43,749 bases of DNA from a virus: positions 1-43,749 of IMG/VR virus record IMGVR_UViG_3300025952_000007; one strand, given 5' to 3'. Within the stretch, counting starts at the first letter, position 1. The number at the start of each line of letters is the position of its first letter. Under the pieces are notes generated by a model, which made no database searches, was not told the DNA's origin, and saw nothing but the letters and a program-made list of their open reading frames with translations. The translations under genes were made by a program, and so were the position numbers. Positions 12,040 to 43,656 of the stretch are shown piece after piece.

Positions 12040-12048
12040 AGGTGTAAA

Positions 12049-16423: not shown

Positions 16424-16437
16424 AGGAGTGAATTTTA

Positions 16438-17436: not shown

Positions 17437-17441
17437 AATTC

Positions 17442-17496: not shown

Positions 17497-17513
17497 TAAA
17501 AGGAGTGATTATT

Positions 17514-17735
17514 ATGTCCAACCAAATAGATATTATCTTACAGATTGTAACAAATACAGAAAGAAAAATAGACGAAATGTCTAAAATTATAGTCACAAAA
17601 GAATCTTGTAATGAACATAGAACTAATTGTATATATTCAAAAAAATTTGAGTGGACAGTAAAAAAGATTATGGCTCTGGCCGGATTGATAGCCGCGTTTT
17701 TTTCCGGTATTGTGGGTTTAGCAAAATTATTATAA
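17514..17735 (+). CDS. Membrane-anchored coiled-coil protein (XhlA-like)
   Basis: The 73-residue protein has a heptad-type N-terminal helix (IDIILQIVTNTERKIDEMSK). A middle C-N-E-H-R-T-N-C element follows, then a C-terminal membrane segment (about 52-72). The layout matches the XhlA/holin-like accessory group seen in Bacillus and clostridial phages, which helps lysis. It is out of place here, between capsid and head fiber, and the main holin lies at 9933. The ATG at 17514 has AGGAGTG upstream; an earlier ATG at 17505 lacks room for a site. Confidence 0.72.
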   Translation: MSNQIDIILQIVTNTERKIDEMSKIIVTKESCNEHRTNCIYSKKFEWTVKKIMALAGLIAAFFSGIVGLAKLL

Positions 17736-17877
17736 AATAAAAGAACAAAGGAACGAATGCAATTTATTGCTACTTTGTAGATTAGAATGTAATATAGTGA
17801 AAGATTCTTGAATCTAGGTGTAAATAGTTCCAACGATTTTTTAATGAAATTAATAAAATTGAAGGGAGCTTTTTTAT

Positions 17878-19332: not shown

Positions 19333-19344
19333 GGGGGTATTTAA

Positions 19345-19698
19345 ATGTCAAATATAGTAAATGAAACATTTGAACCATTATATGCAAGCCCAGCCAACCA
19401 AACAACGACCGGCTCTTATGTTGATGTAGCTGATAGCAAGATTGATACTTATAGTAAAACAAAAGTTTGTTATACTTGTAAAAATGTTCATGTTGCAAAT
19501 AGTATTAATTGGAAGGTCCTATGCTCTAATGATGATTCAAGTTATGTTGAAGCACAAGCAGAGGCAACTTTAACGGCTGGCTCAATTGGAAATTATACTA
19601 ATACCTTGGCGACTTATAGATATTATAAGGTCCAAGTATTAACAACCTCCGGGACCGACCACGGAACCGCACAAGTAAGAGGATTTTCCAAGGCTTAA
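19345..19698 (+). CDS. Possible head decoration protein
   Basis: The 117-residue protein is strand-rich with no helices obvious: SPANQTTTGSYVDVADSKIDTYSKTK, then WKVLCSNDDSSYVEAQAEATLTAGS and YRYYKVQVLTTSG. This beta-sandwich pattern suits a capsid decoration or carbohydrate-contact protein. It follows the head fiber closely and precedes the neck genes. I did not recognise a named family. Confidence 0.68.
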   Translation: MSNIVNETFEPLYASPANQTTTGSYVDVADSKIDTYSKTKVCYTCKNVHVANSINWKVLCSNDDSSYVEAQAEATLTAGSIGNYTNTLATYRYYKVQVLTTSGTDHGTAQVRGFSKA

Positions 19699-19710
19699 GG
19701 GGTTGATTTT

Positions 19711-20025
19711 ATGATTCAAATAGTTAATATGACTGGAAAATTTATGAGGGAATTAAGTCAAAAGATGGAAGCGGCTAAACATAATGTTGGGCGGTTTTGT
19801 GTTGAGAAAATGCGTTATTATGTAGCGGTTGATACTGGTTATTTGCAAAGTAGATGCGAATATGTAGTTGTCAGAAATGAATTATTTCTGCAAAATGACG
19901 CTCCATATGCGTTATTTCAAGAAAAAGGAACATCAAAGATGAACGCTCACCCCTTTATGTATCCGGCTGTTTATAATCATAAATCAGAGATTGAATTAAT
20001 TGTATTTCAAACTTTGCGGATGTGA
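19711..20025 (+). CDS. HK97 gp10-like neck protein
   Basis: The 104-residue protein shows the gp10-like pattern: AVDTGYLQSRCEY (about 46-58), then APYALFQEKGTSKMNAHPFMYPA (about 70-92) with the conserved Y-x-x-x-x-E-x-G-T and PF-x-x-P-A. Proteins of this family join the head-completion ring to the tail. It lies directly before the tail-terminator-like gene. Confidence 0.88.
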   Translation: MIQIVNMTGKFMRELSQKMEAAKHNVGRFCVEKMRYYVAVDTGYLQSRCEYVVVRNELFLQNDAPYALFQEKGTSKMNAHPFMYPAVYNHKSEIELIVFQTLRM

Positions 20026-20036
20026 GGTGATTTATT

Positions 20037-20423
20037 ATGATGTCTTTTGAAAAATTTAAAGGTTACATAGGGGCAAAAATTGATGCGGCTGTATCAATGG
20101 GTGTTTATGGAACTAAACCAGCAAATGATGCCGGTTCCATTTATTGTGTATTTAAATTAACTAATATTGATAATCCAAGTTTAATTAAACAAGTTTGGAC
20201 ATGTGAAATAGATTACTGGAATAAAGCCGCAAATAATGAGGATGAAATTGATAGCACGGCGGTATTGACCGCGGTTGAAGCTGTGAAAGCTGTTATGAAT
20301 GGTGGTTATCAGGTAGAATCAGAAGGATTTTTTAGAAGTTATTTAGATTTTGCTAGTGAAATACCTGATCCATTGCCTGGCGTTTATAGATTTCAACAAA
20401 GATATATTATTGAATTAAGATAG
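20037..20423 (+). CDS. Tail terminator / neck protein
   Basis: The 128-residue protein has a mixed alpha/beta pattern. It has WTCEIDYWNKAANNEDEIDSTAVLTAVEAVKAVM in the middle and YRFQQRYIIELR at the end, close to the gp11/DUF3168 type of tail-terminator proteins that cap the finished tail tube. Identity rests on fold pattern and gene order between gp10-like and tail-tube genes. Confidence 0.75.
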   Translation: MMSFEKFKGYIGAKIDAAVSMGVYGTKPANDAGSIYCVFKLTNIDNPSLIKQVWTCEIDYWNKAANNEDEIDSTAVLTAVEAVKAVMNGGYQVESEGFFRSYLDFASEIPDPLPGVYRFQQRYIIELR

Positions 20424-20438
20424 AAAGGAGTTGTTTAT

Positions 20439-21530
20439 ATGTCAAGTGGTGTAGTAACCCCGGTTATACCAGCGGCCGATGATATTATATTAGGTGAATG
20501 TGCTTTGTATGCAAATTATGAATTGCCGAATCAATTATCTTTAGGCGGATTACAAGGTGGGGTTAAGGTCCAACTAGCAAGAAAAATTGAAGATATTAAA
20601 ATTGATGGGACTTATGGCGGTCAATTAGATGCCAATGGCGTACCATTAAAAAGATATCGAGAATTTCTTGTTAAATTAAGTATTGAGGCTCTATGTCTTA
20701 AATATATGAATAATAAAAATATTTCAAAATGTGATTCGACCGACCTTTGGGAATCTCAAGACTGGGCGGCAACTGGAGGGACTTTTACAGCCGAAACTAG
20801 TATTGTTCTGGCTGGAGATCAAGCCGCTAAGTGTGTCGGAAATACGGATGGATATGGAATACATGAAGTTTTTGCCACTTCAAAAAATTTGACGGTTTTT
20901 GATAATTCAGAAGTAAGCACAACTGCCGATTATATAGCTTTTGCGATTTATATAACAACGGCTGAAATTGCAAAATTAGGAACAGGAATCAAGATATTAT
21001 TTCATAACGATATTGAGGGAACTAAAACAAATTATCTACATTATACAGTTGCAAAAGCAACTTTAGTTAATGGATGGAATGCCTTTAAAATTGCAAAATC
21101 ATCATTTACAACTGTAGCCTCTGGCGCGTGGACTAGTGTAACTGGTGTAAGCTTTGAATTGTCTGGAAGTCCAAGCAGTTCTACAACTTTTTATGTAGAT
21201 TGTATATCATTATTACAAAATCAAAGTAAGTCTACAATGGTTCCATTAAATGGCGCTTTTTTCTCTATGACTGATGAAGGAGACTATAGACAAATAATTG
21301 GTAATTTTGAGGTTAACGATAATAACTATTATGAAAATATTGCCGTGGTAGGTAAAAAGCATAGTGGGAAAAATTTTATAGTAATTATTCGCCATGTCGC
21401 TAACGATGGAAAAATAGAAAGAGCTTTAAAAGAAAAGTCCGAAGTTGTAGCCGGTACGGAATTTTTAGGCCATTATACATCATATTCACCTTTGACGGTC
21501 CCGGTTACTATCAGAGATTATGATGTCTAA
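20439..21530 (+). CDS. Major tail protein with an inserted beta-sandwich domain
   Basis: The 363-residue protein begins SSGVVTPVIPAADDIILGEC and ends YSPLTVPVTIRDYDV, closely related at both ends to the following gene, so the two are tandem paralogs. Between the shared tube halves lies an extra block at about residues 91-263 (20709-21228). Its sequence (FTAETSIVLAGDQAAKCVG, YIAFAIYI, LVNGWNAFKIAKSSF, TTFYVDCISLL) resembles a jelly-roll or carbohydrate-binding module. The insert would stick out from the tail tube. Which copy builds the bulk of the tube cannot be told from sequence alone; the shorter copy is the simpler tube protein. Confidence 0.85.
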   Translation: MSSGVVTPVIPAADDIILGECALYANYELPNQLSLGGLQGGVKVQLARKIEDIKIDGTYGGQLDANGVPLKRYREFLVKLSIEALCLKYMNNKNISKCDSTDLWESQDWAATGGTFTAETSIVLAGDQAAKCVGNTDGYGIHEVFATSKNLTVFDNSEVSTTADYIAFAIYITTAEIAKLGTGIKILFHNDIEGTKTNYLHYTVAKATLVNGWNAFKIAKSSFTTVASGAWTSVTGVSFELSGSPSSSTTFYVDCISLLQNQSKSTMVPLNGAFFSMTDEGDYRQIIGNFEVNDNNYYENIAVVGKKHSGKNFIVIIRHVANDGKIERALKEKSEVVAGTEFLGHYTSYSPLTVPVTIRDYDV

Positions 21531-21549
21531 TGGAAAGGAAGTGATTTAA

Positions 21550-22095
21550 ATGTCAAGTGGTATTGTAACACCAATTATCCCAGTAGCTAATGATATTTTA
21601 TTGGGTGAGGGTACTGTTTACGCTAATTATGGCGAATCTGGCGAGGCAATTATTGGCGCTACACAAGGAGGAAGCAAAGTTGTTTTTGATATAAAAACTA
21701 TTGATCCCAAAGTTGATGGAACTTATGGACCAATTAAAGGCTTAAAAAGAATTAATCAATTTATACCTCATTTAATAGTTAATTTTTTAAAATTAACATA
21801 TGTATCTTTAGCTTATGGCGTACCTTGTACAGTTACGGACATGGGAGATTATCACCAAATAGATTTTAACTTAAACATTGAGGCGGCCGATGTCTTAAAG
21901 AATGTTGCTTTTGTTGGTTATAAACATGATGGAAAGGCGTGTATAGTTATAGTAGAAAATGCCTTAAATGTTGGAAATATTGATCTTAATTTTAAAGAAA
22001 AAACCGAAGTAGTGGGCGAAATGGACTATGAAGGTCTTTATCCACAAGCGACTCCAACCGTACCACCATTTAAAATAAAAGAATACGATGTTTAA
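21550..22095 (+). CDS. Major tail protein, short paralog
   Basis: The 181-residue protein begins SSGIVTPIIPVANDILLGEG, shares GTYGPIKGLKR and the end FKIKEYDV with the preceding gene, and lacks its inserted domain. It is the size of ordinary siphophage tube proteins. It lies directly before the tail chaperones. With its longer paralog upstream it suggests a tube of two related subunits, as known for a few phages with minor decorated copies made by frameshift or duplication. Confidence 0.85.
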   Translation: MSSGIVTPIIPVANDILLGEGTVYANYGESGEAIIGATQGGSKVVFDIKTIDPKVDGTYGPIKGLKRINQFIPHLIVNFLKLTYVSLAYGVPCTVTDMGDYHQIDFNLNIEAADVLKNVAFVGYKHDGKACIVIVENALNVGNIDLNFKEKTEVVGEMDYEGLYPQATPTVPPFKIKEYDV

Positions 22096-22097
22096 AA

Positions 22098-22535
22098 ATG
22101 GCTCAGGCGAGCAATAGAAAGGATTTAGTAAATATGAGGAAATTAAATTTTAATGAAATCTTACTAGTTAGTAAGATTTTAAGGGAAATGGGGACAAAAG
22201 CATATGTTGAATATGCTATTAGAATGAATGAAAGATTAACAGAAAAAATGAAAAAAGATGTTTCAAAATCTGATGAAGAAAAAAAGAAGGCTAAAGATGA
22301 CGCAATAGGAATTGACGTGGCTATTTTTGTATTAGAAAACATGGATTTAGCCAGAGATTCATTATTTGAATTATTTGCATCTTATAATGAGATTTCAGCT
22401 GAGGAAGCTAAGAAACTTGATTTTGATAAAATAGTGGAAACTGTTCAAAATATAATTAAAGCTGGTTTACCTGATGCCCTTATGAAAATATTAAAGAAAA
22501 CTGGTATAAATTTTTTAGCAAAGGCGAATGTATAG
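22098..22535 (+). CDS. Tail assembly chaperone, upstream part (G-like)
   Basis: The 145-residue acidic, helical protein sits between tail-tube and tape-measure genes. A TTTTTTA slippery heptamer (22511-22517) occurs six codons before its stop. A -1 slip there continues into the following frame, giving a longer protein of about 266 residues. This is the G/GT arrangement of lambda and many siphophages, which chaperone the tape measure during tail assembly. The ATG at 22098 lacks a strong ribosome site (the tube stop is 2 bases upstream), suggesting translational coupling. Confidence 0.85.
   Translation: MAQASNRKDLVNMRKLNFNEILLVSKILREMGTKAYVEYAIRMNERLTEKMKKDVSKSDEEKKKAKDDAIGIDVAIFVLENMDLARDSLFELFASYNEISAEEAKKLDFDKIVETVQNIIKAGLPDALMKILKKTGINFLAKANV
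22402..22415 (+). repeat. Dispersed motif, copy 4 (first base differs)
   Basis: AGGAAGCTAAGAAA preceded by G and not A, in the tail chaperone gene, read as E-E-A-K-K. Confidence 0.8.
22511..22517 (+). other. Programmed -1 frameshift site TTTTTTA
   Basis: The codons AAT TTT TTA place the heptamer T TTT TTA in frame 0, as required for tandem slippage. After a -1 shift the frame reads AGC AAA GGC and remains open through 22897. The downstream frame has no ribosome site of its own. TTTTTTA is also the slippery sequence used by HIV-1. Confidence 0.85.
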
Positions 22536-22543
22536 AAAATTTA

Positions 22544-22897
22544 ATGTATATTTATCATGACTATAGTTATGTTGAATATATATTAAATTCTGAAGCAAAT
22601 AAAGGTTTGTTATTATATTCTAAATGTCTTGATAGAATAAATGATGAAATCAGCAAGCATCATGATGATAGATTATGGCAAGCCTTTATTAATTCAGGAA
22701 TTGAGGGGCAGACATTCGATGAATTTAAGGCCTCTATGAAATATAGAAGTAATAAAATGAATTTATCTCATTCTGAAAAAGTTAATGAAGAAACAAGAAT
22801 TATTAAAAATAGTGAAGACTTAAGAAAAATTATTGAAGCTAAAGACAAGGAAATGAGTTTAAAAAAAATAGCTAAATTAAATGTAGAGGAGGGATAA
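22544..22897 (+). CDS. Tail assembly chaperone, -1 frame extension (GT-like)
   Basis: The part from 22544 codes for 117 residues; with the frameshift the extension runs from 22517 and adds 126 residues to the upstream chaperone. Sequence is helical and charged with DRLWQAFINSGIEGQTFDEFK. No Shine-Dalgarno precedes the ATG at 22544 (AGAAAATTTA), so separate initiation is unlikely. The real product is the fusion with 22098-22516. Confidence 0.82.
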   Translation: MYIYHDYSYVEYILNSEANKGLLLYSKCLDRINDEISKHHDDRLWQAFINSGIEGQTFDEFKASMKYRSNKMNLSHSEKVNEETRIIKNSEDLRKIIEAKDKEMSLKKIAKLNVEEG

Positions 22898-22899
22898 AC

Positions 22900-23544
22900 T
22901 TGATTGCAACATTAACAGAAATCAAGGCCCTTTTAGGTATATCGGTATCTACTTATGATACTCAAATAAAATCTTATATTCCAGTAGTGGAGGAGGTTAT
23001 TTGTGGCCATTGTAGAAATGACTTTATTGATTATCGACCAAATGGTTATACTGGTATTAATGAGGTAACAGTTTACGCAAATAGGGCCACGCTTTCATTT
23101 GTGGCCTCGACAAATTCTGTAAACGATTCTGCTAGTGGTTTGGCTGGATTAAACTTTAAGGTTGGCGATTCTGTAAGGGTTTATAATAGCCTCCACAATA
23201 ATCAAATATTTACTATTAAAACCGTGGCCGCAGGATCTATTGTTTTTGAAGATATTGATACCGTAAAAGATGAAGCGGCAGGATTTATGGTCTTAATGGT
23301 TAGATTAAATTGGCCAAGGGCTTTAAAAGATACGGTTGCAAATATGATTAAATTTAAACTTGATAAAAAGATAAATATGGCCGTTAAAGCAGAAAGTTTT
23401 GACGATTATAGTTATTCAACAACCGACCAAAAAGAATATATTAATGGTTATCCAAAAAGCATTATGTCTAATTTAAAAGATTATAAATGTTTAATTAAAA
23501 AACAATACCCTTTGATTGAACTATATAACAAGCAAGGGGGTTAA
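22900..23544 (+). CDS. Head-tail connector, gp6-like, with an insert
   Basis: The 214-residue protein starts MIATLTEIKALLGIS and YDTQIKSYIPVVEEVICGHCRNDF, the standard opening of gp6-like connectors. A strand-rich insert of about 75 residues follows (VTVYANRATLSFVAS to AAGFMVLMV), then the usual PRALKDTVANMIKFKLDKK helix. Family members are typically near 100 residues, so this one is enlarged. TTG start with GAGGAGGG. It is unusual that connector genes come after the chaperones and not next to the capsid gene. Confidence 0.82.
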   Translation: MIATLTEIKALLGISVSTYDTQIKSYIPVVEEVICGHCRNDFIDYRPNGYTGINEVTVYANRATLSFVASTNSVNDSASGLAGLNFKVGDSVRVYNSLHNNQIFTIKTVAAGSIVFEDIDTVKDEAAGFMVLMVRLNWPRALKDTVANMIKFKLDKKINMAVKAESFDDYSYSTTDQKEYINGYPKSIMSNLKDYKCLIKKQYPLIELYNKQGG

Positions 23545-23546
23545 TT

Positions 23547-23870
23547 ATGATTGAAGATTATTATATACCTTGTGTAAGAAAAAGGGCCGCGGCGTCAACA
23601 CAAAATACTAAATATGAATATCAAACAACTTATACCAATACAAATATAAATGGTTATGTTGGTCGTCGTACAAATATGGAACAAAATACAGCTGAAAAAA
23701 ATACAGTTAAATCACAATATAATTTTTATTGTGATGATCTTGCTTTGACTTATGGAGATTTAATTGTTTATAATTTGAAAAATTATCGAGTTATATCAGA
23801 GCCCCAAAATACGGTTAATGCAAATCATCATATAAAGGCCATTGTTGAATATATTTCAAATGTAAACTAA
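23547..23870 (+). CDS. Head closure / head-tail stopper protein
   Basis: The 107-residue protein is strand-rich, basic at the start (IPCVRKRAAAS), and has DDLALTYGDLIVYNLKNYRVISEP, a pattern of the SPP1 gp16 / head-tail joining fold. It follows the gp6-like connector with 2 bases between. It would close the portal channel after packaging. Confidence 0.72.
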   Translation: MIEDYYIPCVRKRAAASTQNTKYEYQTTYTNTNINGYVGRRTNMEQNTAEKNTVKSQYNFYCDDLALTYGDLIVYNLKNYRVISEPQNTVNANHHIKAIVEYISNVN

Positions 23871-23887
23871 AGGAGGTGAATAGATAA

Positions 23888-25711
23888 ATGTCTTTTCAGA
23901 TTTTTGATGTATTTGGTGATATAAGATTCGAAGGAATAGACCAAGTCATGAGTCAAATATCAAATCTAGGTAATGGATTAACAAGTTTAGGAAGTCAAAT
24001 AACTGGTTTTGGCCAAAGATTAATTAATGGTATGACAAAACCAATTATGGGACTTATTGAACAAGGCGTAACCTATAATTCAACAATTGAAGACCTCCAA
24101 ACATCTTTTGAGGTAATGTTAGGTAGTGAGGAAAAAGCTATTAAAATGACCGAAAATTTAAAAGAGATGGGAGCCAAAACGCCGTTTGAAGTTGTGGGAC
24201 TAGCCCAGGCTACGAAGACGTTATTAAATTATGGCTATACAAATGAAAATGTATTACCCATTATGAGTAGACTTGGGGATGTAGCTTTAGGAAATAATGA
24301 ACGTTTTCAAGGCTTATCCGTGGTTATGGGCCAAATTAATAGTTTAGGAAGATTACAAGCTGGCGACCTTAATCAATTAATTAATCGTGGTTGGAACCCA
24401 TTAAATGAAATTAGTAAGAGAACTGGCGAAACCATGAATCAATTAAGGGAAAGAATGAAAGAAGGTAAATTAACTTATGCAGAGGTTCAACAAGCCTTAG
24501 AAGATGCAACGAATGCGGGCGGAAAATTTTATCAAGGAATGGCAAAAGGCTCCGAAACTTTAAGCGGTAAGTTATCAACATTAAAAGACAATTTTAATGA
24601 ATTTTTAGGTCAAGCCGTAAAGCCAATAAGTGACTGGTTAAGTAATGTCTTAATTCCGAAATTAACCGAATTAACGGCCTGGTTTGCTAATTTGTCTCAA
24701 GAAACCAAAACCGCTATTTTAGTTTTTGCTGGTTTATTGGCTGGGGCTGGCCCTGTAGTGCTAATTCTTGGTTTAATGGTAACTGCGCTAGGATCATTAT
24801 TAAGTCCTTTAGGTTTAGTAATTGGCGCTGTCGGTTTATTAACTGGAGGTTTTATATTAAATTACATTCATACAGAAAGCTTACAAGGGGCTTTTACTAT
24901 GTTAGTTTTTTATATGGGTGAAATAAAGAATTTTATTATGGACACTTTAGTTCCAGCACTTAAATATTTAGCTACTGGCGAAGGTTTAGAAAAGGTCCAG
25001 AATGCGGCCGGAATAACCAGGACAAAAGTAGAAGAATTAAGAACCAAGATGCACGAATTTAAGGAAAAATTAATGGATGTTTGGGACTGGCTAATAAAAG
25101 TTAAAGATATTTGCGAAAAAGAACTGCCGCCGGTAATAGAATCTTTAAAAAAACTTTGGGGTGAATTAAAAACGGCTGGCGACAATGTTTCTAAGGTTCT
25201 TAAAGTTATAAGGGACGATTCCGGTGATGCTAAAACGCAAATATCAGGAACGGCCAAAGCTGTAAAAGATTTAGTTGATGCCTTTTCCACAATTATTGGA
25301 TGGGGTAATAAAGTAGTTAGCGTAATTATAAGTATTGATACATGGTTTAAAAATGTTAATAAATCAATGGATAAATTTTTAAATAAAATACCTGGTATAT
25401 CTAATATAAATAAGGGTGTAAATTCTTTATTAGGTTTAGCCAGTGGAACCGATAATGCCTCCCGTGGTTTTGCTATAGTTGGCGAGGAAGGGCCAGAAAT
25501 AGTCCAATTTGCGGGTGGTGAAAAAGTTTATACAGCTAGTGAAACCAGAAGGATTCTTAATAATAGAACTACAGGAAGTTATAACACAAGCAATGTTACA
25601 AATATAACTTTGAATGTTGAAGCTAGAAATTTTCAAGATATTGTAAATTTAAATCAATTTTTAGAAATGATTAAGACTGAGAGCGTAACAAGGGGAGGAG
25701 GTGATTTCTAA
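23888..25711 (+). CDS. Tape measure protein
   Basis: The 607-residue protein sets tail length. It has the tape-measure N-domain pattern: GLTSLGSQITGFGQRLING, then STIEDLQTSFEVMLGSEEKAIKM, KTPFEVVGLAQATKTLLNYG and LQAGDLNQLINRGWNPLNEI (within about 30-190). A strongly hydrophobic segment (about 275-325) follows, then coiled-coil-like helices with several Lys/Glu heptads. RGFAIVGEEGPEIVQFAGGEKVYTA near the C-terminus is a common tape-measure ending. At about 1.5 angstrom per residue the helix predicts a tail near 90 nm (family rule, inference). Ribosome site GGAGG, then the next gene starts in its stop codon. Confidence 0.92.
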   Translation: MSFQIFDVFGDIRFEGIDQVMSQISNLGNGLTSLGSQITGFGQRLINGMTKPIMGLIEQGVTYNSTIEDLQTSFEVMLGSEEKAIKMTENLKEMGAKTPFEVVGLAQATKTLLNYGYTNENVLPIMSRLGDVALGNNERFQGLSVVMGQINSLGRLQAGDLNQLINRGWNPLNEISKRTGETMNQLRERMKEGKLTYAEVQQALEDATNAGGKFYQGMAKGSETLSGKLSTLKDNFNEFLGQAVKPISDWLSNVLIPKLTELTAWFANLSQETKTAILVFAGLLAGAGPVVLILGLMVTALGSLLSPLGLVIGAVGLLTGGFILNYIHTESLQGAFTMLVFYMGEIKNFIMDTLVPALKYLATGEGLEKVQNAAGITRTKVEELRTKMHEFKEKLMDVWDWLIKVKDICEKELPPVIESLKKLWGELKTAGDNVSKVLKVIRDDSGDAKTQISGTAKAVKDLVDAFSTIIGWGNKVVSVIISIDTWFKNVNKSMDKFLNKIPGISNINKGVNSLLGLASGTDNASRGFAIVGEEGPEIVQFAGGEKVYTASETRRILNNRTTGSYNTSNVTNITLNVEARNFQDIVNLNQFLEMIKTESVTRGGGDF

Positions 25712-28486: not shown

Positions 28487-30616
28487 ATGTCTACTTTACT
28501 TGATAGTTATAGCGAATCGAATTATACTGCGAGTTCGACCGCGGCGGCAACGGAATCAAGGGGGCAAAGTTTTACTTCGCCCTCCACACAATATAATTTA
28601 GTGTCGTGTAAATTTTATGTTTATACAGACACTGGAAATGTTACTACGCGGGCAAAATTATATGCTCATAGTGGAACTTATGGGACTAATGGAGTCCCAA
28701 CCGGATCAGTCTTAGCAACTTCAAGTGATGTAGTTGTAAACCAAGCTTCATCTACTTTAATAACTTATACTTTTGGCACACCTTATTTATTAAGCGCTGA
28801 TACTTATTATTTTATAGTTCTTGAAGCTGAGGGAGGCGAAAGTAATAACTTTAAATTTGGATATGACGGAACTCCAGAACATAGCGGAAATTATGCATCA
28901 TATACTGGGTCTAGTTGGTCAGCTAGTTCAGCGCGTGATTTAATTTTTTATGTTTACGGCGATCCTAATAATGTTACTGTTAATGTTCCAACAATTAATA
29001 TTAGTTGCGCGGCAAAAAACCCAACATTACAAGAAAAATCAAATATACCGGTTATTAATATTACTTGTGAGGCTAAAACGCCATTATTACAAGAAAAATC
29101 AAATATACCGGCTATTAATATAAATTGTGAGGCTAAAATTCCAACATTAATATATCCCGTTAAAATTGATGTTCCTTTAATTAATATAAGTTGTGAGGCT
29201 AAAGTTCCGACATTGCAAGAAAAATTAAATATACCAGTTGTCAATATAAGTTGTGAGGCTAAAGTACCAGAAATAACATATAATATTAGAACATATATTC
29301 CGACTATTAATATTAATTGTGAAGCTAAAGTCCCAGAAATAACATATAACATTAAAATACATGTTCCGGTTATTAATATTAGTTGTGAGGCTAAAGTTCC
29401 AGAAATAACATTAAAAGAAGATATAGTAATTAATTGTCCTCTTATAGAGGTAATTTGTGAAGCTTTGACACCAAGAATAAGAATTATTTATCCAGTAATT
29501 ATATCAGAAAGCCAAGGAAATATTTTTACAAGAAATAGATATGAAAAATTTGAGTATGAATTATTATCATTGAGTAATGAAAGATATGAAAATGCTGGTT
29601 GGATAACTGACTATGTAAAAAAAGATTCTGGAAATATTACAATGGATTTTTCCAGAGATGTAATTGGAACAGCTAGTTTTTTAATTAGAAATAATGAAGA
29701 TATTAATTATTTATCCGATCTAGTAAGACCATGGTATGTTTTAAATGATACTTATCGTTATCCATTAGGGACTTATATGTTATCATCACCAAGCAAAAAA
29801 TTAGATGGAAAATATGTATCAAGATATGTCCAGGGTTATGATTTGTTATTAGCTATGGACCAAGATAAAATGATTACATCCTATACAATTGAAGCCGGAA
29901 CAAATATCGTAACAGCAATTGAAACTATAATATATAGTTATACGACTTTATGGACAGAAGCAGACATTACACCTAGTGACGAAGTATTGGCAGTAGATGT
30001 AAGTTATGAATTAGGAAAAAGTAAATTATTTATCATAAATAGTCTTTTAAATATGATAAATTATTACCCGCTTTGGTGTGATGGTTACGGTGTTTTTAGG
30101 TCTATTCCCTGGTCGGCTGAAAAAAATACTACTTATGAGTTTATTGATAATAACCTATCAATTTATACGCCAAATGTTGATTTAGTCCTTGATTATACTG
30201 GAATTTATAATCGAGTAGTTATTATAAATAATCAATTAGAACAGGATACTGCTCCATTATATAAAGTTTGGACTTTTGAAAATGAAGGTTTAGAAGATCA
30301 TCCTTTTAGTTATGCGACTTTAGGAAGATACATAACTAAAATATTTCAAAGTGAAGCCGTTAGCCAAGATTATGTCGATTTAAGAGCGCGACGCGAATTA
30401 TTGAAAATGTTAGAAATAGAGGAAGCTGTAAATTATAATCATGCTTATATATCAGCTAGAGAAAATGACGGTTTACCCTGGCAAGGTGATAGTTACAGAT
30501 TTGTTAATAGTAAATTAAATATAGATAGTATTTATAAAATAGAATTATTTAGTTTTAATTTAAAAGTTGGCGGCCTTGTAAATAGCAAAATTAAAAGGAT
30601 AAGGAGTACATATTGA
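28487..30616 (+). CDS. Tail-associated protein with cysteine-repeat spacer
   Basis: The 709-residue protein has three parts. An N-terminal beta domain (1-160, AAATESRGQSFTSP, ADTYYFIVLEAEGG) resembles carbohydrate-contacting tail domains. The spacer (about 166-331) holds eight repeats of 20-23 residues with core P-x-I-N-I-x-C-E-A-K-x-P, one cysteine each. The C-terminal part (about 340-709) has YEKFEYELLSLSNERYENAGW, RPWYVLNDTYRYPLGTYML and YVSRYVQGYDLLLAM, typical of tail-associated baseplate proteins. Such proteins normally have this C-terminal part alone, so domain shuffling is likely. The cysteine spacer may form a disulfide-rich stalk after release from the cell (inference). Confidence 0.8.
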   Translation: MSTLLDSYSESNYTASSTAAATESRGQSFTSPSTQYNLVSCKFYVYTDTGNVTTRAKLYAHSGTYGTNGVPTGSVLATSSDVVVNQASSTLITYTFGTPYLLSADTYYFIVLEAEGGESNNFKFGYDGTPEHSGNYASYTGSSWSASSARDLIFYVYGDPNNVTVNVPTINISCAAKNPTLQEKSNIPVINITCEAKTPLLQEKSNIPAININCEAKIPTLIYPVKIDVPLINISCEAKVPTLQEKLNIPVVNISCEAKVPEITYNIRTYIPTININCEAKVPEITYNIKIHVPVINISCEAKVPEITLKEDIVINCPLIEVICEALTPRIRIIYPVIISESQGNIFTRNRYEKFEYELLSLSNERYENAGWITDYVKKDSGNITMDFSRDVIGTASFLIRNNEDINYLSDLVRPWYVLNDTYRYPLGTYMLSSPSKKLDGKYVSRYVQGYDLLLAMDQDKMITSYTIEAGTNIVTAIETIIYSYTTLWTEADITPSDEVLAVDVSYELGKSKLFIINSLLNMINYYPLWCDGYGVFRSIPWSAEKNTTYEFIDNNLSIYTPNVDLVLDYTGIYNRVVIINNQLEQDTAPLYKVWTFENEGLEDHPFSYATLGRYITKIFQSEAVSQDYVDLRARRELLKMLEIEEAVNYNHAYISARENDGLPWQGDSYRFVNSKLNIDSIYKIELFSFNLKVGGLVNSKIKRIRSTY
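28984..29480 (+). repeat. Eight cysteine-bearing coding repeats of 20-23 residues
   Basis: Eight units of about 60-69 bases encode P-x-I-N-I-S/N-C-E-A-K-V-P repeats; the first and last are degenerate. The DNA motif TTGTGAGGCTAAAGT recurs. It is part of the tail-associated gene. Confidence 0.85.
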
Positions 30617-31749: not shown

Positions 31750-31801
31750 AAAAATAATGCTATTAAAATTTTTTGAATATTATTTTAATAGCATTATTTT
31801 T
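31750..31801. terminator. Bidirectional terminator between late and FtsK-type operons
   Basis: A perfect 20-bp stem (31750-31769 with 31782-31801) with AAAATAATGCTATTAAAAT and its complement ends both the plus-strand tail operon and the minus-strand operon. A tandem GTGTCCAAA lies just before it (31733-31750). Confidence 0.93.
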
Positions 31802-31802: not shown

Positions 31803-32849
31803 TTAAAATGAACTTTCTTTAATATATTTTAAACTGGTCCCGGAACTTTGAAAACAATTTAACTCATTTTTAATTTTTTTCCACTGCCCCTCTGTCAAGT
31901 CAAATATTTGTCTAATTTTCCCACTTGGTATTGTGTCCCCATCTTTGAAATTTTCATTTAAGTAAGTTGCAATTTCATTTTTTAAAATAGTTAAGTCCTT
32001 TTCTTTTAGTAAAATTACATTCTTAACTTTTCCTAACTCTTGACTTAACTTTTTATTTTCTTGACTTAACTCTGACTTAACTTTTCCTAACTCTTGACTT
32101 AACTCATTTTCTAACTCTGTCTTAACTTGTCCTAACTCTGTAATAGCTTCATTCTCATTAGATGTCTTAGTTACGATTTTAAATGTCTCTTGACATTTTT
32201 TAAATGTCTCTTGATTGTCACTTAAGTCAAAAGTTAAGTCATTCAAGTTATTATTATATTTGTTAAAAGTATCCATTCTTAACTTATGCAATTTATTAAA
32301 CATCATCATGCGAATTATTGAAAATAGGCCAACACTTTCAATTCTTTTTATCTTATTTTCTTGATAATTTAATAATCTAAAGTCACCGCCCATTGCTGTG
32401 GTTAACAATATTGAACCTTCTAAAAGTATGGATAATGCTAAATTCCATAAACTTTTTTCTTCAAAGAATTTATAATTATAATTTATGGATATTGCAAAAA
32501 GGCCCATTTGAAATATTTTAGCAATTAAATAATACCTAGAAAATTTATTTTTTATAGTTGATTCCTTGATGCATATGCTATACACTGACAGTTGACAAAA
32601 AATAATACCAATTATAAAGCCTGTTAATCCAAGGGTTGTTTTATGGGTTTTAAGTCCGCCAACAATGGTCATAATTGTGGAAGCTGTAAAGCCCATAAAA
32701 CCAATTAAGCCAAAAATATAACCCCAAAGTTTAGTTGAATTATCATATTTAATTTCATTTTTTAAATGGCTCATAGTCCTTTTTACACTTATAAGATTAT
32801 AATCCATCTTTATTTTTTTAATATTTTCTTTCATTTTTTCAATAGTCAT
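31803..32849 (-). CDS. Membrane protein with coiled coil and C-terminal DNA-binding-like domain
   Basis: The 348-residue protein has a charged N-terminus and membrane segments at about 42-63, 72-92, 105-122 and 137-153. A long coiled coil follows (about 215-300) with a repeated S-Q-E-L-G-K-V-K unit. The C-terminal domain (about 305-348) has IPSGKIRQIFDLTEGQWKKIKNEL, like a winged-helix or HTH fold, and ends GTSLKYIKESSF. A membrane anchor joined to a DNA-binding head by a stalk suggests a protein that ties DNA to the membrane. It is last of the operon with the FtsK-type ATPase. No known family was recognised; segregation or transfer is inference. Confidence 0.75.
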   Translation of the reverse strand: MTIEKMKENIKKIKMDYNLISVKRTMSHLKNEIKYDNSTKLWGYIFGLIGFMGFTASTIMTIVGGLKTHKTTLGLTGFIIGIIFCQLSVYSICIKESTIKNKFSRYYLIAKIFQMGLFAISINYNYKFFEEKSLWNLALSILLEGSILLTTAMGGDFRLLNYQENKIKRIESVGLFSIIRMMMFNKLHKLRMDTFNKYNNNLNDLTFDLSDNQETFKKCQETFKIVTKTSNENEAITELGQVKTELENELSQELGKVKSELSQENKKLSQELGKVKNVILLKEKDLTILKNEIATYLNENFKDGDTIPSGKIRQIFDLTEGQWKKIKNELNCFQSSGTSLKYIKESSF

Positions 32850-33332
32850 CTAATTATCCTCCCTTATCAATTTATATTTTCGATTCATTTCTATTATTTC
32901 ACTTATCCAACCAAGATTTAATAAATCATTAAATCTTTCTGATATTAAGTCCTTTCCACAATTAAAGTAATTTGCAATTAATCTATTACCTTCTTTTGTA
33001 TAAATATTATCTATTGCTTTATCTTTCATGTAAATATATAACATTTCAAATTGACATTGTTTACTAAGCTTTTTAAAGTTTTGGCGGTTATTTTCATTAA
33101 AATTTGGCTCATTTTCTGGGAAAATAACATCACCTTTTCCGCCGCCGCCACCTTGATAATATATAATAGTTGTTTTACCTTCTAAAAAATTCTTTAAATG
33201 TATTTCACTAAAATGACTATTGTAAGGAGGCTTTATCGGGTAAAGCGGGTTTATCAAGATTGGCTTTGATTCTGGTTGGTTTTGAATAGCCAACTGCTTT
33301 AATTGCTTCAAAAACTCTGTTATGATTATCAT
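32850..33332 (-). CDS. Winged-helix-like protein overlapping the ATPase gene
   Basis: The 160-residue protein starts 116 bases inside the 3' end of the ATPase gene in another frame. The ATG at 33332 is supported by AGGGGGTG seven bases upstream. N-terminal part is P/L/Q-rich; a GGGGGKGD turn occurs near residue 61; the C-terminal half (about 90-158) has CQFEMLYIYMKDKAIDNIYTKEGNRLIANYFNCGKDLISERFNDLLNLGW, typical of a replication-initiator or winged-helix DNA-binding domain. It is next to the membrane translocase, as initiator or relaxosome proteins are in mobile plasmids. Function inferred only. Confidence 0.72.
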   Translation of the reverse strand: MIIITEFLKQLKQLAIQNQPESKPILINPLYPIKPPYNSHFSEIHLKNFLEGKTTIIYYQGGGGGKGDVIFPENEPNFNENNRQNFKKLSKQCQFEMLYIYMKDKAIDNIYTKEGNRLIANYFNCGKDLISERFNDLLNLGWISEIIEMNRKYKLIREDN

Positions 33333-34983
33333 CTATAAACACCCCCTTTAATTTATAAACTTCGCCTTTTTCATTCTTGAAGCAAAAATATCCCTGCTCT
33401 TGATTCATTGCATAATTGTAATAATCTGGACTTTCTAACATGTATTTTATTTCCGATGATTCAGCAAATTTATGTATTAATCGGCCATCTGCTGAAACTC
33501 TCCAAGTCTTATAATATTGGTCATCGGTGGCTTTTTGTATAATGTCTATGAGATGAAATCCTGCCGATCGTGATTTTGTAAATAAATAAGTCCTTATATC
33601 CTTATAATTCATTTCCTGAGTTTCATTCCCAAAGTCAATTGTGTATTCTCTTTTATAATTCATTTGGACAGGAGTATTAATTTCATCACTTACAATTAAA
33701 AAAAATGGTAATGGATTATCCGGGAACATTTTATTATATTGGATTATGTCCCTGCATTCGATGCCAGTATCAAAAGTAACATCTTCAAATAGTTTATTTC
33801 TTCTCTTAAATTCGCCAATAAGATTAATATAAAATTCCATTTGGGCCGATTCGCTATCCTCTACCATATAAATATTTTTGATGCCTCGATATCTATTCAT
33901 AGCGGACCTTTTAAAATCGGTTATGAATACAACTAATTTATCGTAACTATAATAAATCATTCCATCAATACAACTTATGGCCGTGCAACTTTTTCCAGTA
34001 TTAGTCATACCACCAATTACCGCATGCGTTAATTTAGTCATATCAGAAAATATTACTTTTCCATTGGTAGGATCTATTCCTACGATAAACGGCAAAATCA
34101 TATCTTTAGGCGGTTTAACTGTCTCAATAACTTCATCTAAATAATACACTTTATTGTCCAACTTTTTGATTTTAAACTCATAATTTCCTTCGTTTGTTGT
34201 GATTTCTAATTTTCCAGATTTTAATCCTAATTTATGAGTTATTTCGGCTAATTCCCGGTTTAAAAATTTAAGTTTAATTTTGGATTGATAAATATATATA
34301 TCTTGATATTTGTCAGTAATTGAACTTATATAATATGGTATTCCTTTCATATCTTTTAAAATTTGTTCTAATCGTTCACGGCTACCAGGTTCCATTTTTG
34401 AATATCTATCGTCAAGACCTTTTTTATATTTGATATAAAACTTATTTCTATTTACAATATCATTTGTTATACTGGTAACAGTTGCATTTGTTATAATAGA
34501 AAATAGTATTTTGTGCTTTTCGTCTAGTGGTACATTGGACCTGACCTCCAATGTACCATTTACATTTTCAACAAGCCTTACTTTATTGTCATATTCTTCA
34601 TTAAGCCGCTCAATTATTTTATCTGTTATATATAAGGACCATAAAACAAATCTTATTAAGTCCAATGGATAACTTATTACCAAAGGCAAAAATAATATTT
34701 TAAGGGAAAAATTGAAGTAGTGAATAACTAATCCAGCCAGAACAATACCAATTATCATAATAGCTATAACTCCCCTAAAATCAAGTTTTTTGACATAACT
34801 CTTTGTTAGTCTCATAAATGAAAATAATTTATTTCTTTTTTTTTGCTTTACCATGGCCAGTTTAAAACCATGGGAAACCAAAATAAAAAGAAAGCCAAAC
34901 AATGGATTGATTTTAAAATATTGAAGTATACCAGCTAACACAATACTTGCAATTACTTCAAATTTTGTTACTAAAATCTTCAT
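33217..34983 (-). CDS. Membrane FtsK/SpoIIIE-type DNA translocase
   Basis: The 588-residue protein has two pairs of N-terminal membrane segments (about 8-45 and 71-118). A cytoplasmic linker region follows, then an FtsK-type motor with Walker A GGMTNTGKS (324-332), Walker B FFLIVSDE (427-434) and arginine/sensor region FTKSRSAGFHLIDIIQKA (about 463-480). There is no gamma DNA-orienting domain at the C-terminus. Size and layout are closer to Gram-positive conjugation coupling proteins such as TcpA and to ICE FtsK-like proteins than to bacterial FtsK (which is larger). It would pump double- or single-stranded DNA at the membrane. It heads the minus-strand operon behind a perfect promoter, divergent from an AbrB-like gene. 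Such genes are unusual in siphophages. Confidence 0.86.
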   Translation of the reverse strand: MKILVTKFEVIASIVLAGILQYFKINPLFGFLFILVSHGFKLAMVKQKKRNKLFSFMRLTKSYVKKLDFRGVIAIMIIGIVLAGLVIHYFNFSLKILFLPLVISYPLDLIRFVLWSLYITDKIIERLNEEYDNKVRLVENVNGTLEVRSNVPLDEKHKILFSIITNATVTSITNDIVNRNKFYIKYKKGLDDRYSKMEPGSRERLEQILKDMKGIPYYISSITDKYQDIYIYQSKIKLKFLNRELAEITHKLGLKSGKLEITTNEGNYEFKIKKLDNKVYYLDEVIETVKPPKDMILPFIVGIDPTNGKVIFSDMTKLTHAVIGGMTNTGKSCTAISCIDGMIYYSYDKLVVFITDFKRSAMNRYRGIKNIYMVEDSESAQMEFYINLIGEFKRRNKLFEDVTFDTGIECRDIIQYNKMFPDNPLPFFLIVSDEINTPVQMNYKREYTIDFGNETQEMNYKDIRTYLFTKSRSAGFHLIDIIQKATDDQYYKTWRVSADGRLIHKFAESSEIKYMLESPDYYNYAMNQEQGYFCFKNEKGEVYKLKGVFIDDNHNRVFEAIKAVGYSKPTRIKANLDKPALPDKASLQ

Positions 34984-34998: not shown

Positions 34999-35027
34999 TT
35001 GCTTTTTTTTAGTAATTATATTATACT
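34999..35027 (+). promoter_or_regulatory. Promoter of the AbrB-like gene, overlapping the opposing promoter
   Basis: TTGCTT (34999-35004), 17 bases, TATACT (35022-35027). Its -10 overlaps the -10 of the minus-strand promoter. TTAGTA (35009-35014) and TACTAA (35024-35029) form a dyad over both -10 regions, a candidate operator. Confidence 0.72.
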
Positions 35028-35048
35028 AACATTGTAAGTACATGTCAA
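35020..35048 (-). promoter_or_regulatory. Promoter of the FtsK-type operon
   Basis: On the minus strand TTGACA (plus coordinates 35043-35048), 17 bases, TATAAT (35020-35025): perfect consensus. The -10 box shares four positions with that of the opposing promoter, so the two cannot easily fire together. Confidence 0.9.
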
Positions 35049-35070: not shown

Positions 35071-35244
35071 ATGGAAATTATAAAGAACCTGCAAAAGCAT
35101 GGAAATAGTAAATGTATAGTAATTGATTCCTGGATTTTAAAGCAATTAGGAATTTTTAAGAAATTTAAAATGATCATAGAGCAAAAAAGAATAATAATTG
35201 AAAGGGTGGAGGAAAATGAAGTTACCAAGCGAAATGACGAATAA
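35071..35244 (+). CDS. AbrB/MazE-like DNA-binding protein 1
   Basis: The 57-residue protein MEIIKNLQKHGNSKCIVIDS continues WILKQLGI and ends in a hydrophobic strand IIEQKRIIIERV. The HGNSxxIxI...LxxLGI...xRIII pattern is that of swapped-hairpin AbrB/MazE domains, which bind DNA as dimers. The gene is divergent from the FtsK-type operon with overlapping promoters, so it is the likely regulator of both. It is paralogous in layout to the AbrB-like gene at 41155. A toxin gene of MazF type was not found beside it. Confidence 0.83.
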   Translation: MEIIKNLQKHGNSKCIVIDSWILKQLGIFKKFKMIIEQKRIIIERVEENEVTKRNDE

Positions 35245-35752: not shown

Positions 35753-35957
35753 AATTGATTGGCCCTTAGTATGTAAATTAACTTATCAAATTGACAATGA
35801 ATTATTACAGACATTGGAAAGACATTATATTAAAGGTAAAGGCCAAAATGATCATGTCATTATAAGGGCAGAAGAATTTAAAAGAATCATATATATGATC
35901 TTGGATTCTACAAAAAATATAAGGAGGTGTCGGACTTATGAACAAAAAAGGCCATAG
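35742..35957 (+). CDS. Small unknown protein
   Basis: A 71-residue protein (MKVKIDWPLVCKLTYQIDNE...) starts in the last codons of the preceding gene, with GGAG nine bases upstream. It contains an acidic helix LLQTLERHYIKG and VIIRAEEFKRIIYMILDS, and it overlaps the next gene's start by 20 bases. It was not recognised. Confidence 0.65.
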   Translation: MKVKIDWPLVCKLTYQIDNELLQTLERHYIKGKGQNDHVIIRAEEFKRIIYMILDSTKNIRRCRTYEQKRP

Positions 35958-36357
35958 TGTGGGAGCGGCTATAGCATCGGGGTTAACAATTTATTACTTA
36001 AAAGATTCATATTTTGTTGAAGCCATTACAGTTGGTGGAGTTGTTATTGGTTCATTCTGGCCGGATCTTGATGCTGAGTATTCATATATCAAGTCAAAAT
36101 TGCCAATAATCCCAAATGTAATTGAATTTATTCAAAAAGTTTTACCAGAAAATAATATTACTTGCCATCGTGGCGCGTTATTTCATTCGATTTTGACCTT
36201 AATTCCCTTTGCAATATTTTATAAGGTCCCATTTGTTTTAGGGATGGGAATAGGTATTCTAGGCCACCATTTATTAGATATGACAACTCCGGCCGGCCTA
36301 AGATATTTTTACCCTTATAAAGTAAAAGTTCATGTTTGGAGGCGAATAAAAAAATGA
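35938..36357 (+). CDS. YdjM/DUF457-like membrane metal-dependent hydrolase family protein
   Basis: The 139-residue protein has hydrophobic segments around 8-22, 32-46, 85-103 and a short one near 105-120. Charged, conserved-looking motifs lie between them: KGHSVGAAIASG, GSFWPDLDAEYSYIK, CHRGALFHSILTL and GILGHHLLDMTTPAGLRYFYP. The repeated H, D and E pattern near membrane segments matches the YdjM (DUF457) group. E. coli YdjM is LexA-regulated; an enzymatic role is uncertain. In a phage, it could modify the membrane or aid persistence (inference). AAGGAGGTG ribosome site. Confidence 0.84.
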   Translation: MNKKGHSVGAAIASGLTIYYLKDSYFVEAITVGGVVIGSFWPDLDAEYSYIKSKLPIIPNVIEFIQKVLPENNITCHRGALFHSILTLIPFAIFYKVPFVLGMGIGILGHHLLDMTTPAGLRYFYPYKVKVHVWRRIKK

Positions 36358-36605
36358 TGGAATTAGTTATTAAGTTAAAAAATGATTGTAAATTAGATAG
36401 TTTAAATAGTTTACATAATTATGTAAATTGTAATTTCGAAAAACAAATTAAAAACGCATTTATAAACCACTTGAAAAAGGATGATAGTGAATATGTGTTT
36501 GTTTTGGATAATGTAACTATTGATAGCCTATTTTTAACACCATTATTGAATTTTGAGCCTGTAAATAGTTTTTATATTTTAGAAAGGTTGGAAAAAATAG
36601 TATGA
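36354..36605 (+). CDS. Small unknown protein
   Basis: The 83-residue protein begins M-M-E-L-V-I-K-L-K-N-D. Start ATG at 36354 overlaps the preceding stop (ATGA). It has a helical, basic first half and an acidic strand-rich second half (YVFVLDNVTIDSLFLTPLLNF). Its stop overlaps the next start. No family recognised. Confidence 0.65.
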   Translation: MMELVIKLKNDCKLDSLNSLHNYVNCNFEKQIKNAFINHLKKDDSEYVFVLDNVTIDSLFLTPLLNFEPVNSFYILERLEKIV

Positions 36606-41435: not shown

Positions 41436-41466
41436 TAGCCCTTGTCATAAATTTATGACTTGGCTA
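41436..41466. promoter_or_regulatory. Palindrome at the origin/helicase boundary
   Basis: GTCATAAATTTATGAC (41444-41459) is a perfect 16-base palindrome, and outer arms TAGCC (41436-41440) and GGCTA (41462-41466) extend it. A TATAAT lies just upstream at about 41423-41428. It may be an operator for the helicase gene or a part of the origin. Confidence 0.65.
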
Positions 41467-41493
41467 AATTTTTCAATATCTAGGAGGTATTAT

Positions 41494-43656
41494 ATGACAA
41501 AAAGGGAAAAAAATCAAGTCAATTGGTTTGAGGAGGTAAAAAATAATATCAGACTTGAAAACAATGAAAGTTTTTTCATTGGAGAAATTCCCGCTCCTGC
41601 TGGAACTAAAAAAGCTATGAGATATGGAACTGGCGAAGGAAAAACTTACAATGCCGCTTATTTTGCTTTGTATAATTTATTTTATACCAGCAGAAAAATA
41701 ATAATTTCCACAACTAAAAATGAAAATGTTGAGGATCTTTTAAATGAAATTTTTGATATTTTAAAGAAAAATATATCAATTACAGAAAATTTACAACAAT
41801 TTTTAGATGATGGAATTAAAAAAAGTGTAGGGAAACAACTTTTAAAAAAGTTAGGGATTAATAAAATGGTAAGTTATAATCAAATTGCAAAAGAAAATTT
41901 ATCAATGGCCAGGGTTATTATAACAAATCATTCCTATTTTTACCCAAATGGTCATTCTAGTTACTACTTCAAAAATATTCTCAAACTTATGGAGGTCATT
42001 GGTCCTGATGATATATTTATCATTGACGAGGCCGACGAGTTTGAAAAAATGGCAGAAACTTCAATACAATTGAATGACTATTTAAAAACCGTTAAGTCAA
42101 GTACTGATAATATTTTAAGGCCTGCTAAAAATTGCTTTGCCAGTCGGAGCAAAGATCAATTTATTAAGGCAATGGACGAATACCGGTATGAACTACCAGT
42201 TGAAAACACCAATATAAGATTTACAAAAGAGGGGGATTTTGATACGCCTACTTATGTTTTGGACCAAACAAACAATAATTTGGACCTAGACCAATTAATT
42301 AATGAGTTTTATTTTGAAAAACATACCTTTGAAGATACTGGCCGGCGTGTTGGAATGACAATTGATGCTTTCGATAATAAATTCAAATTGCTCCGGGTAT
42401 TTAAAGGCGAATATCTAAGCCCAAATAATATCAATCATTACCATTTGGAAACTAATGATATTTTAAGGTTAATTCAAAATTCAATCGGCGCAACTAAAGT
42501 TGAGCAAATAATTAGACTTTTAGATCCACTCACTGAGGAGCCAATTATTGATTTTGATACTAGAGAAGAATTTATATCATGGTGTCAAAAAAATATGACT
42601 ATCAATCAATATGATAAAATGATCAAAAAGTTGATGAATGAGGCAAAATTACTTTATAAGAGATTTTTAACAGTCAAAAGAAAGCCTATCATTAATAAAT
42701 GCAATACAGTATATTATATTACGGCAACTCCTTACAATCTTAATCAATTAGGTTATTTTGTAGAAAATGGTAAATCAAAAAAAGTAAATACAATTGAAAA
42801 TATTGATATGTTCTTTATAAATAGGGATATATCAGTTGACAACTTAGTTATCAACTTGGCAACTGAATGCTTACTTAATTATAAAGATGATATCAATTGT
42901 CTTAGCTTCGCCGCAGAGAAAAGAAATGTTGAGAAGTTAATAAAATCCAAAAAATATCTTTACAAAGATAAAAAATATTCTGGCGTAAAGGTTAAAACTT
43001 CGATTAATGATGATTATCTGGTTGATTTAAAAGGTGTTACTGCAGTATTAGGTGAGGCCGATAATTATGAATGTATTAAAGACTATTCTTATATAACATA
43101 TTTGAATAGCCCAGAATCAACTGGGAAAAATTATAAGGTATCAAATCTTTGTATCATTAACACCCAGCCAGAAATTAATGCCCTGGGTCGTCAATTAATA
43201 ACAGATAAATATGCCAAGTTTATTGATATTGAAGTTGCTAGTTTTAGGACCATTCTGCAAGCTTGCGGCCGAATTGAGAGAGCAGACAGCGAAAAGTATA
43301 AAGCCATTATTTTTATTGGAAAAGATGAAAACATTGTTAATAATTACATTGAAGAAAAAAAAGGAAATGGCATAATTTATAATTTTATGAGTGACAAAAC
43401 CATTAAATTAGGTGAAAAAAACCTAAAACATAAGATTATAAAAATATTTGACCATATCAAAGCTAATATTAACAGTGATTTCGAAGAAATGCAATTAAGT
43501 TTTCAAGATTCAAGAAAAAAATACAATAAATCCGAAATAATTCAATACTATTTAAACTTATTATCTAATAATTTAGATAAGGAAGCTAAGAAACAAACAA
43601 TTTATAAATTTGGCATTGCTAGAAATTTATTAAATCAATATATCAAAAATATTTAA
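41494..43656 (+). CDS. SF2 DEAD-box-type helicase
   Basis: The 720-residue protein has Walker A GTGEGKT (45-51), motif Ia IIISTTKN (69-76), motif II IIDEADEF (176-183), motif III YYITATPY and motif VI QACGRIERADS near residue 600. It is an SF2 helicase; the four cysteines of DinG/XPD enzymes are not present. The ATG at 41494 is chosen because AGGAGG lies 7 bases upstream. The gene directly follows the DnaA-box array, so it may unwind or load at the origin. The end crosses the circular join. A copy of the dispersed motif lies near the 3' end. Confidence 0.9.
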   Translation: MTKREKNQVNWFEEVKNNIRLENNESFFIGEIPAPAGTKKAMRYGTGEGKTYNAAYFALYNLFYTSRKIIISTTKNENVEDLLNEIFDILKKNISITENLQQFLDDGIKKSVGKQLLKKLGINKMVSYNQIAKENLSMARVIITNHSYFYPNGHSSYYFKNILKLMEVIGPDDIFIIDEADEFEKMAETSIQLNDYLKTVKSSTDNILRPAKNCFASRSKDQFIKAMDEYRYELPVENTNIRFTKEGDFDTPTYVLDQTNNNLDLDQLINEFYFEKHTFEDTGRRVGMTIDAFDNKFKLLRVFKGEYLSPNNINHYHLETNDILRLIQNSIGATKVEQIIRLLDPLTEEPIIDFDTREEFISWCQKNMTINQYDKMIKKLMNEAKLLYKRFLTVKRKPIINKCNTVYYITATPYNLNQLGYFVENGKSKKVNTIENIDMFFINRDISVDNLVINLATECLLNYKDDINCLSFAAEKRNVEKLIKSKKYLYKDKKYSGVKVKTSINDDYLVDLKGVTAVLGEADNYECIKDYSYITYLNSPESTGKNYKVSNLCIINTQPEINALGRQLITDKYAKFIDIEVASFRTILQACGRIERADSEKYKAIIFIGKDENIVNNYIEEKKGNGIIYNFMSDKTIKLGEKNLKHKIIKIFDHIKANINSDFEEMQLSFQDSRKKYNKSEIIQYYLNLLSNNLDKEAKKQTIYKFGIARNLLNQYIKNI
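43579..43593 (+). repeat. Dispersed 15-base motif, copy 6
   Basis: Exact AAGGAAGCTAAGAAA near the 3' end of the SF2 helicase gene, in the K-E-A-K-K frame. Confidence 0.85.

Follow-up and report, generated by a model that had tools for sequence, protein, structure and literature searches.

The operon and the phages that carry it

The viral contig IMGVR_UViG_3300025952_000007 (43,749 bases, analysed at full length and called the window here) carries three adjoining minus-strand genes at 31803–34983, which encode an FtsK/SpoIIIE-class protein, a small protein that starts inside the first gene, and a predicted membrane protein (genes 1, 2 and 3, respectively; Table 1). The preliminary description of this DNA had recognized a three-gene operon here, and the conservation of all three reading frames in two related phages bears this out.

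Table 1 Features of the operon and its immediate flanks in the window
Feature	Position	Strand	Description
Terminator	31750–31801	−	A+T-rich hairpin between the operon and convergent late genes; −17.8 kcal/mol, z −5.4
Gene 3	31803–32849	−	348 aa; membrane segments (residues about 45–155), coiled coil (about 205–283), predicted C-terminal winged helix (about 284–345)
Gene 2	32850–33332	−	160 aa
Gene 1	33217–34983	−	FtsK/SpoIIIE-class membrane dsDNA translocase by sequence; 588 aa, without gamma domain
Ribosome-binding site	33340–33349	−	AAAGGGGGTG; strong, inside gene 1, upstream of the gene 2 ATG
Walker B of gene 1	33682–33705	−	FFLIVSDE, residues 427–434; DE invariant
Walker A of gene 1	33988–34014	−	GGMTNTGKS, residues 324–332; invariant in three orthologues
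Operon promoter	35020–35048	−	TTGACA-17-TATAAT; 12/12 sigma-A consensus
Operator-like inverted repeat	35024–35040	−	TACTTACAATGTTAGTA; between −35 and −10
Divergent small gene	35071–35244	+	57 aa; AbrB/MazE-like by eye

Siphophage genes in the window include those for the terminase large subunit, an SPP1-type portal, scaffold, an SU10-type capsid, tape measure, an amidase endolysin and an ERF recombinase. An IMG/VR search returned two relatives as the sole matches, G001 (43,079 bases) and G002 (40,763 bases). Mapping of all window proteins on both showed the genomes to be collinear with contig ends at different positions on the circle (in window coordinates, near 35.8 kb in G001 and near 21.5 kb in G002). 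All three are therefore probably circularly permuted genomes that are complete or nearly so. No tyrosine integrase or serine recombinase domain was detected in any of them, and no resolvase family was found.

Genes 1–3 have the same order, orientation and place in each phage. The proteins of genes 1, 2 and 3 are, respectively, 76, 80 and 80% identical to those of G001 and 54, 66 and 57% identical to those of G002, within the range of the other core genes of the phage, and the dN/dS values (0.14–0.20 against G001 and 0.20–0.32 against G002) indicate that purifying selection acts on all three. Given orthologues in both relatives, an unchanged order and dN/dS of 0.14–0.32, the operon is a real, conserved unit and not a product of chance. 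In the G001 operon, genes 2 and 3 are separated by an extra 80-amino-acid gene, the homologue of which stands apart in the window, on the plus strand (36336–36605). A peptide-pattern scan of 84,980 species genomes found no relatives, and a Walker A pattern scan gave 18 contigs, with related FtsK, gene 2 and gene 3 proteins in G001 and G002 only. Searches of genes 2 and 3 against phages and plasmids returned no match. Two faecal records matched in the FtsK search (MT835804 and MT835518) have the appearance of bacterial FtsK and EccC-like contigs and were not considered further.

The operon has a promoter and a terminator of its own and is self-contained in the manner of morons, as might be expected of a superinfection-exclusion or other defence system in which a membrane ATPase blocks or clears incoming DNA, and PADLOC matched the ATPase part to SspH (E = 5.8e-10). 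That match, however, is confined to the generic FtsK/HerA-type motor, no PADLOC defence model was matched by gene 2 or gene 3, and the operon occurs in three of three group members, as expected of a core gene; we regard defence as very improbable.

Elsewhere in the window, a small secreted Thr/Pro-rich protein (1005–1421) ends in an LPKTGE sortase-type anchor, which is unusual in a phage, and has a related gene in G001. An N6/N4 DNA methyltransferase (7145–8470) has an N-terminal ParB-like part. The 733-amino-acid helicase-like protein at 41455–43656 is conserved in the group, its nearest model being the type IV CRISPR-associated DinG (E = 2.7e-7), and a tail protein (28487–30616) has a VPxINISCEAKxP-type repeat whose copy number varies between phages. 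Accessory genes encode a HIRAN-domain protein (4836–5231), an ERCC4-type nuclease (6533–7096) and a YdjM-like membrane protein (35938–36357).

The motor and its two partner proteins

Gene 1 matches the Pfam family FtsK_SpoIIIE above cut-off (E = 2.5e-7), PHROG_1358 (FtsK/SpoIIIE-like; E = 2.5e-23, residues 42–555) and the solved FtsK structure 2ius (E = 2.9e-9); by its motor domain and its Walker A and B motifs, the protein is a member of the FtsK/SpoIIIE translocase superfamily. Hydropathy alone marks four N-terminal hydrophobic segments (residues 3–21, 27–45, 72–90 and 96–114), which recur in the G001 protein and are weaker in that of G002. Pfam FtsK_gamma was found neither in the gene 1 protein nor anywhere in the window, G001 or G002, and the chain has no winged helix C-terminal to the motor. 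Without a gamma domain in its chain, gene 1 is not a canonical chromosomal FtsK/SpoIIIE, and the preliminary description of a membrane FtsK/SpoIIIE-type ATPase with N-terminal helices and no gamma domain holds.

A profile of the gene 1 motor was scored on reference motors. Bacillus-type plasmid and phage FtsKs received 67 to 39 bits, including those of a Niallia plasmid (67 bits), Paenibacillus plasmids (64 and 40 bits), the Herelleviridae phage Eldridge (51 bits) and phage SpaA1 (51 bits), and chromosomal FtsK received 37 and 28 bits; Orf21 of Tn925 (Tn916 family) scored 5.0 bits, and for VirD4 and Streptomyces Tra the score was close to zero or negative, with a maximum of 4 bits. Because the profile scores high on plasmid and phage FtsKs and near zero on Orf21, VirD4 and Tra, gene 1 is best classified by sequence as a mobile-element FtsK, with no recognizable TcpA/Orf21/ConQ coupling protein in it. 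The likeness to conjugation machinery that had been suggested for it goes, for TcpA, ConQ and Orf21, as far as membership of the FtsK/HerA superfamily and N-terminal membrane segments; the match to solved TcpA reaches only E = 3e-4, and gene 1, unlike those proteins, has no relaxase beside it.

Gene 2 begins 116 nt inside gene 1, out of frame (overlap 33217–33332), and 122 nt inside it in G002. In all three genomes AAAGGGGGTG or a near copy precedes gene 2, and this conserved overlap and ribosome-binding site couple the two genes. Fusion of FtsK and gene 2 through a +1 frameshift was considered and is disfavoured, the conserved strong ribosome-binding site pointing to separate initiation. In related phage and plasmid FtsKs, a winged helix lies at the C-terminal end of the same chain as the motor, and the C terminus of gene 2 (about 33059–32859) aligns weakly to it (LLNLGWISE...KYKLI in gene 2 against LVEEGWL...GYELI in the FtsKs). 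The hhalign score of 21.2 was reached by 0 of 100 column shuffles (maximum 16.6), for a match that is itself weak (hhalign probability 10%; about 5 bits in hmmsearch); gene 3 gave no such alignment to the same winged helix. The winged-helix-like character first noted for gene 2 thus draws its support from this profile match and none from structure prediction, which reached a mean pLDDT of only 41 with AF2 on a three-row alignment. As gene 1 lacks a gamma domain, related motors end in a winged helix and the C terminus of gene 2 matches that winged helix, the data are suggestive of a split-off DNA-reading subunit that would supply in trans the domain missing from gene 1.

The preliminary description had also pointed to the initiator protein that accompanies FtsK-type coupling ATPases in Gram-positive conjugative elements. 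Domain searches and alignment assign gene 2 to neither the Rep_trans nor the Replic_Relax initiators, and that part of the comparison falls. Replic_Relax was rejected for gene 2 because the protein does not align to P28 of phage SpaA1 and PF13814 is absent.

Gene 3 has three clear hydrophobic segments (residues 45–63, 76–94 and 137–155) and one weak one, followed by a coiled-coil-like stretch that, in sequence, most closely matches the VASP coiled coil and ATP-synthase b. Structure prediction from a three-row alignment gave a mean pLDDT of 49 with only the C terminus usable; this part forms an H-E-H-H-E-E unit (pLDDT about 70) that aligns best in structure to winged helices, and a C-terminal winged helix is predicted. 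The earlier portrayal of gene 3 as a membrane, coiled-coil and DNA-binding protein therefore stands at the level of prediction. VIA-align matches of the helical part (Sec3, STAT3 and MukF) were treated as common helical arrangements.

An architecture of this kind could also serve a membrane centre for replication or DNA organization. The phi29 protein p16.7 tethers replicating phage DNA to the membrane; gene 3, a membrane, coiled-coil and DNA-binding protein by prediction, may do likewise, with gene 2 as a site-binding accessory and the motor resolving or arranging concatemers instead of passing DNA through a septum. The early-type operator of G001 (see below) fits replication timing. Against this, the operon lies apart from the replication genes at 37.3–41 kb and tethering does not need a pump with four membrane segments, and we consider such a centre unlikely.

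Promoter, operator and timing of expression

The sigma-A promoter of the operon is conserved in the relatives. In G001, its operator (ACTTA-N5-TAAGT) is the same as that of the early promoters; the exact sequence occurs at five sites in the genome against 0.05 expected, four at early promoters and one in the operon promoter. G002 has the exact site at one early promoter and one-mismatch sites at others and at the operon. From these sites we infer that the operon is part of the early, repressible gene set of G001 and probably also of that of G002. The repeat at the window operon is TACTTA-N5-TTAGTA, and the early promoters of the window bear a different one.

Near-perfect early promoters of the window (2848, 4043 and 5228 on the plus strand and 38804 on the minus strand) have inverted repeats between −35 and −10, as do their counterparts at 8947–12249 in G001 and 15512–24225 in G002. 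The early-promoter repeat of the window differs from that of the two relatives, a difference that heteroimmune repressors would be expected to show. In each of the three phages the divergent 57-amino-acid gene lies upstream of the operon; it has no significant Pfam match, and its AbrB-like product is a candidate for an alternative, local regulator of the operon. Neither the early-type operator of a relative nor the 116-nt overlap had figured in the preliminary description.

A strong sigma-A promoter should need no phage factor, which would suit a pump that is made from the first DNA to enter the cell and pulls in the remainder. A role of this kind has been proposed for the SpoIIIE/FtsK protein of the Bacillus megaterium phage Pony (PMC3853050). 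Such a motor, however, would have to be synthesized and to assemble on DNA whose entry is under way, and the G001 operator suggests repression by a phage regulator; a role in DNA entry appears improbable.

Known systems, conjugation and the proposed role

The three genomes lack the relaxase families PF03432 and PF02486 (Rep_trans/MobT; the control was detected in B. subtilis) as well as Replic_Relax (PF13814), which is not found next to FtsK either, and no VirB4-type or other mating-channel gene was recognized among the proteins scanned, a set short of every small ORF. The absence of a relaxase noted at the outset is thereby upheld. The closest motors nevertheless sit in conjugation-like surroundings: the FtsK of the Niallia plasmid is preceded by a TrbC/VirB2-like pilin (E = 2.9e-7) and by a polytopic membrane protein that Herelleviridae phages also encode, and a Paenibacillus plasmid FtsK lies near a TraG-type ATPase and an M23 peptidase. 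Both are from non-mobilizable plasmids and have the winged helix C-terminal to the motor; unlike the window proteins, they are single-chain.

The conjugation reading is thus partly supported, in that an FtsK-class translocase does stand with two accessory proteins and its closest relatives have such neighbours, whereas likeness to coupling of the Tn916/ICEBs1 type is not supported. A remnant or minimal device for cell-to-cell DNA transfer, descended from conjugative plasmids, would account for those neighbours, and Streptomyces TraB, an FtsK-like motor, transfers dsDNA as a single motor without a relaxase (PMC12857230). No relaxase family and, among the proteins scanned, no channel gene was recognized, however, gene 3 is unrelated to the plasmid membrane protein, and Orf21, VirD4 and TraB score near zero on the motor profile, so that we think this origin and function quite improbable.

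Reports of SpoIIIE/FtsK homologues in Bacillus phages go back to at least 2013 and call their role unknown (PMC3853046, PMC4559737), and one survey counted 21 Bastille-like phages with an FtsK/SpoIIIE homologue (PMC4528723). The FtsK/SpoIIIE proteins of Bacillus Herelleviridae (Eldridge, Troll, Grass and others; PHROG_1358) resemble gene 1 as FtsK-class motors of phages of Gram-positive bacteria, and adjoin a gene for a polytopic membrane protein as gene 1 has a membrane partner. In contrast to gene 1, they are about 750 amino acids long, contain the winged helix in the same chain and have few membrane segments of their own; their membrane partner is unrelated to gene 3, and the phages measure 150–165 kb. 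The polytopic membrane proteins next to FtsK in these phages and in the Niallia plasmid are homologous (about 31% identity, E about 1e-50), making FtsK plus this protein a DNA-translocation unit common to virulent phages and a plasmid; no relation of gene 3 to it was found. The SpaA1/BceA1 module, in a 42.8-kb phage, likewise combines a membrane protein (P26), an FtsK (P27; motor profile E = 4.8e-13) and a small protein (P28), but P27 has 388 amino acids and no membrane segments, P28 is a Replic_Relax protein unrelated to gene 2, and the phage has integrases.

The order of motor, small gene and membrane protein is also that of TraB(Tra), SpdA and SpdB in Streptomyces, and SpdB of pIJ101, with four membrane segments and a helical/coiled part, is built like gene 3. 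Similarity between gene 3 and SpdB is nevertheless undetectable (hhalign probability 0.1%, no homology), that of the motors is weak, and TraB carries its own winged helix. Spd membrane proteins help TraB; one of them, SpdB2, interacts with TraB and is itself a dsDNA-binding protein, and plasmid SLP2 showed enhanced instability when spdB2 was mutated (PMC4170104).

Given the FtsK class of gene 1, its membrane segments, the operon's own strong promoter, the early operator in G001, the lack of a relaxase and purifying selection, our preferred explanation, with a probability of roughly 0.45, is that the operon encodes an early-expressed, membrane-anchored FtsK/SpoIIIE-class dsDNA pump whose substrate, at the membrane or septum, is the DNA of the phage itself. 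The difference between the operon operator and the early operators in the window counts against it. In the proposed mechanism, gene 3 would provide a membrane platform and tether DNA through its winged helix, gene 2 would be the DNA-reading winged helix, made from an overlapping gene rather than as part of the motor chain as in related FtsKs, and a hexameric gene 1 motor would then move or hold phage dsDNA at the membrane. By analogy with SpoIIIE for chromosomes and TraB with Spd proteins for Streptomyces plasmids, the pump would most likely serve phage genomes that meet a division or sporulation septum or another fused membrane, either by preventing their entrapment there or by taking them across; whether the destination is a septum, a forespore or a neighbouring cell is likewise suggested by analogy.

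The preliminary description had raised the possibility of a new system; the help with segregation or DNA injection that it also suggested may apply. FtsK motors of phages and plasmids were already known; what is new is the split arrangement, the gene 3 partner, the phage group and the link to an operator. Because the motor, the likely DNA-reading subunit and the membrane partner each have a gene of their own that can be removed, in a phage of 43 kb, the role of a phage membrane DNA pump would be easy to test genetically, and if gene 2 is a split-off winged helix, the pair would offer a natural two-part FtsK for biochemical study. A bolder version of the pump, which we hold to be a long shot, is a TraB/Spd-like device without a relaxase, in which the split FtsK motor, the DNA-reading subunit and the membrane tether together pass the dsDNA genome, still unpackaged, across septa to sister cells, chained neighbours or forespores; if true, this would be a second, particle-free route of phage spread.
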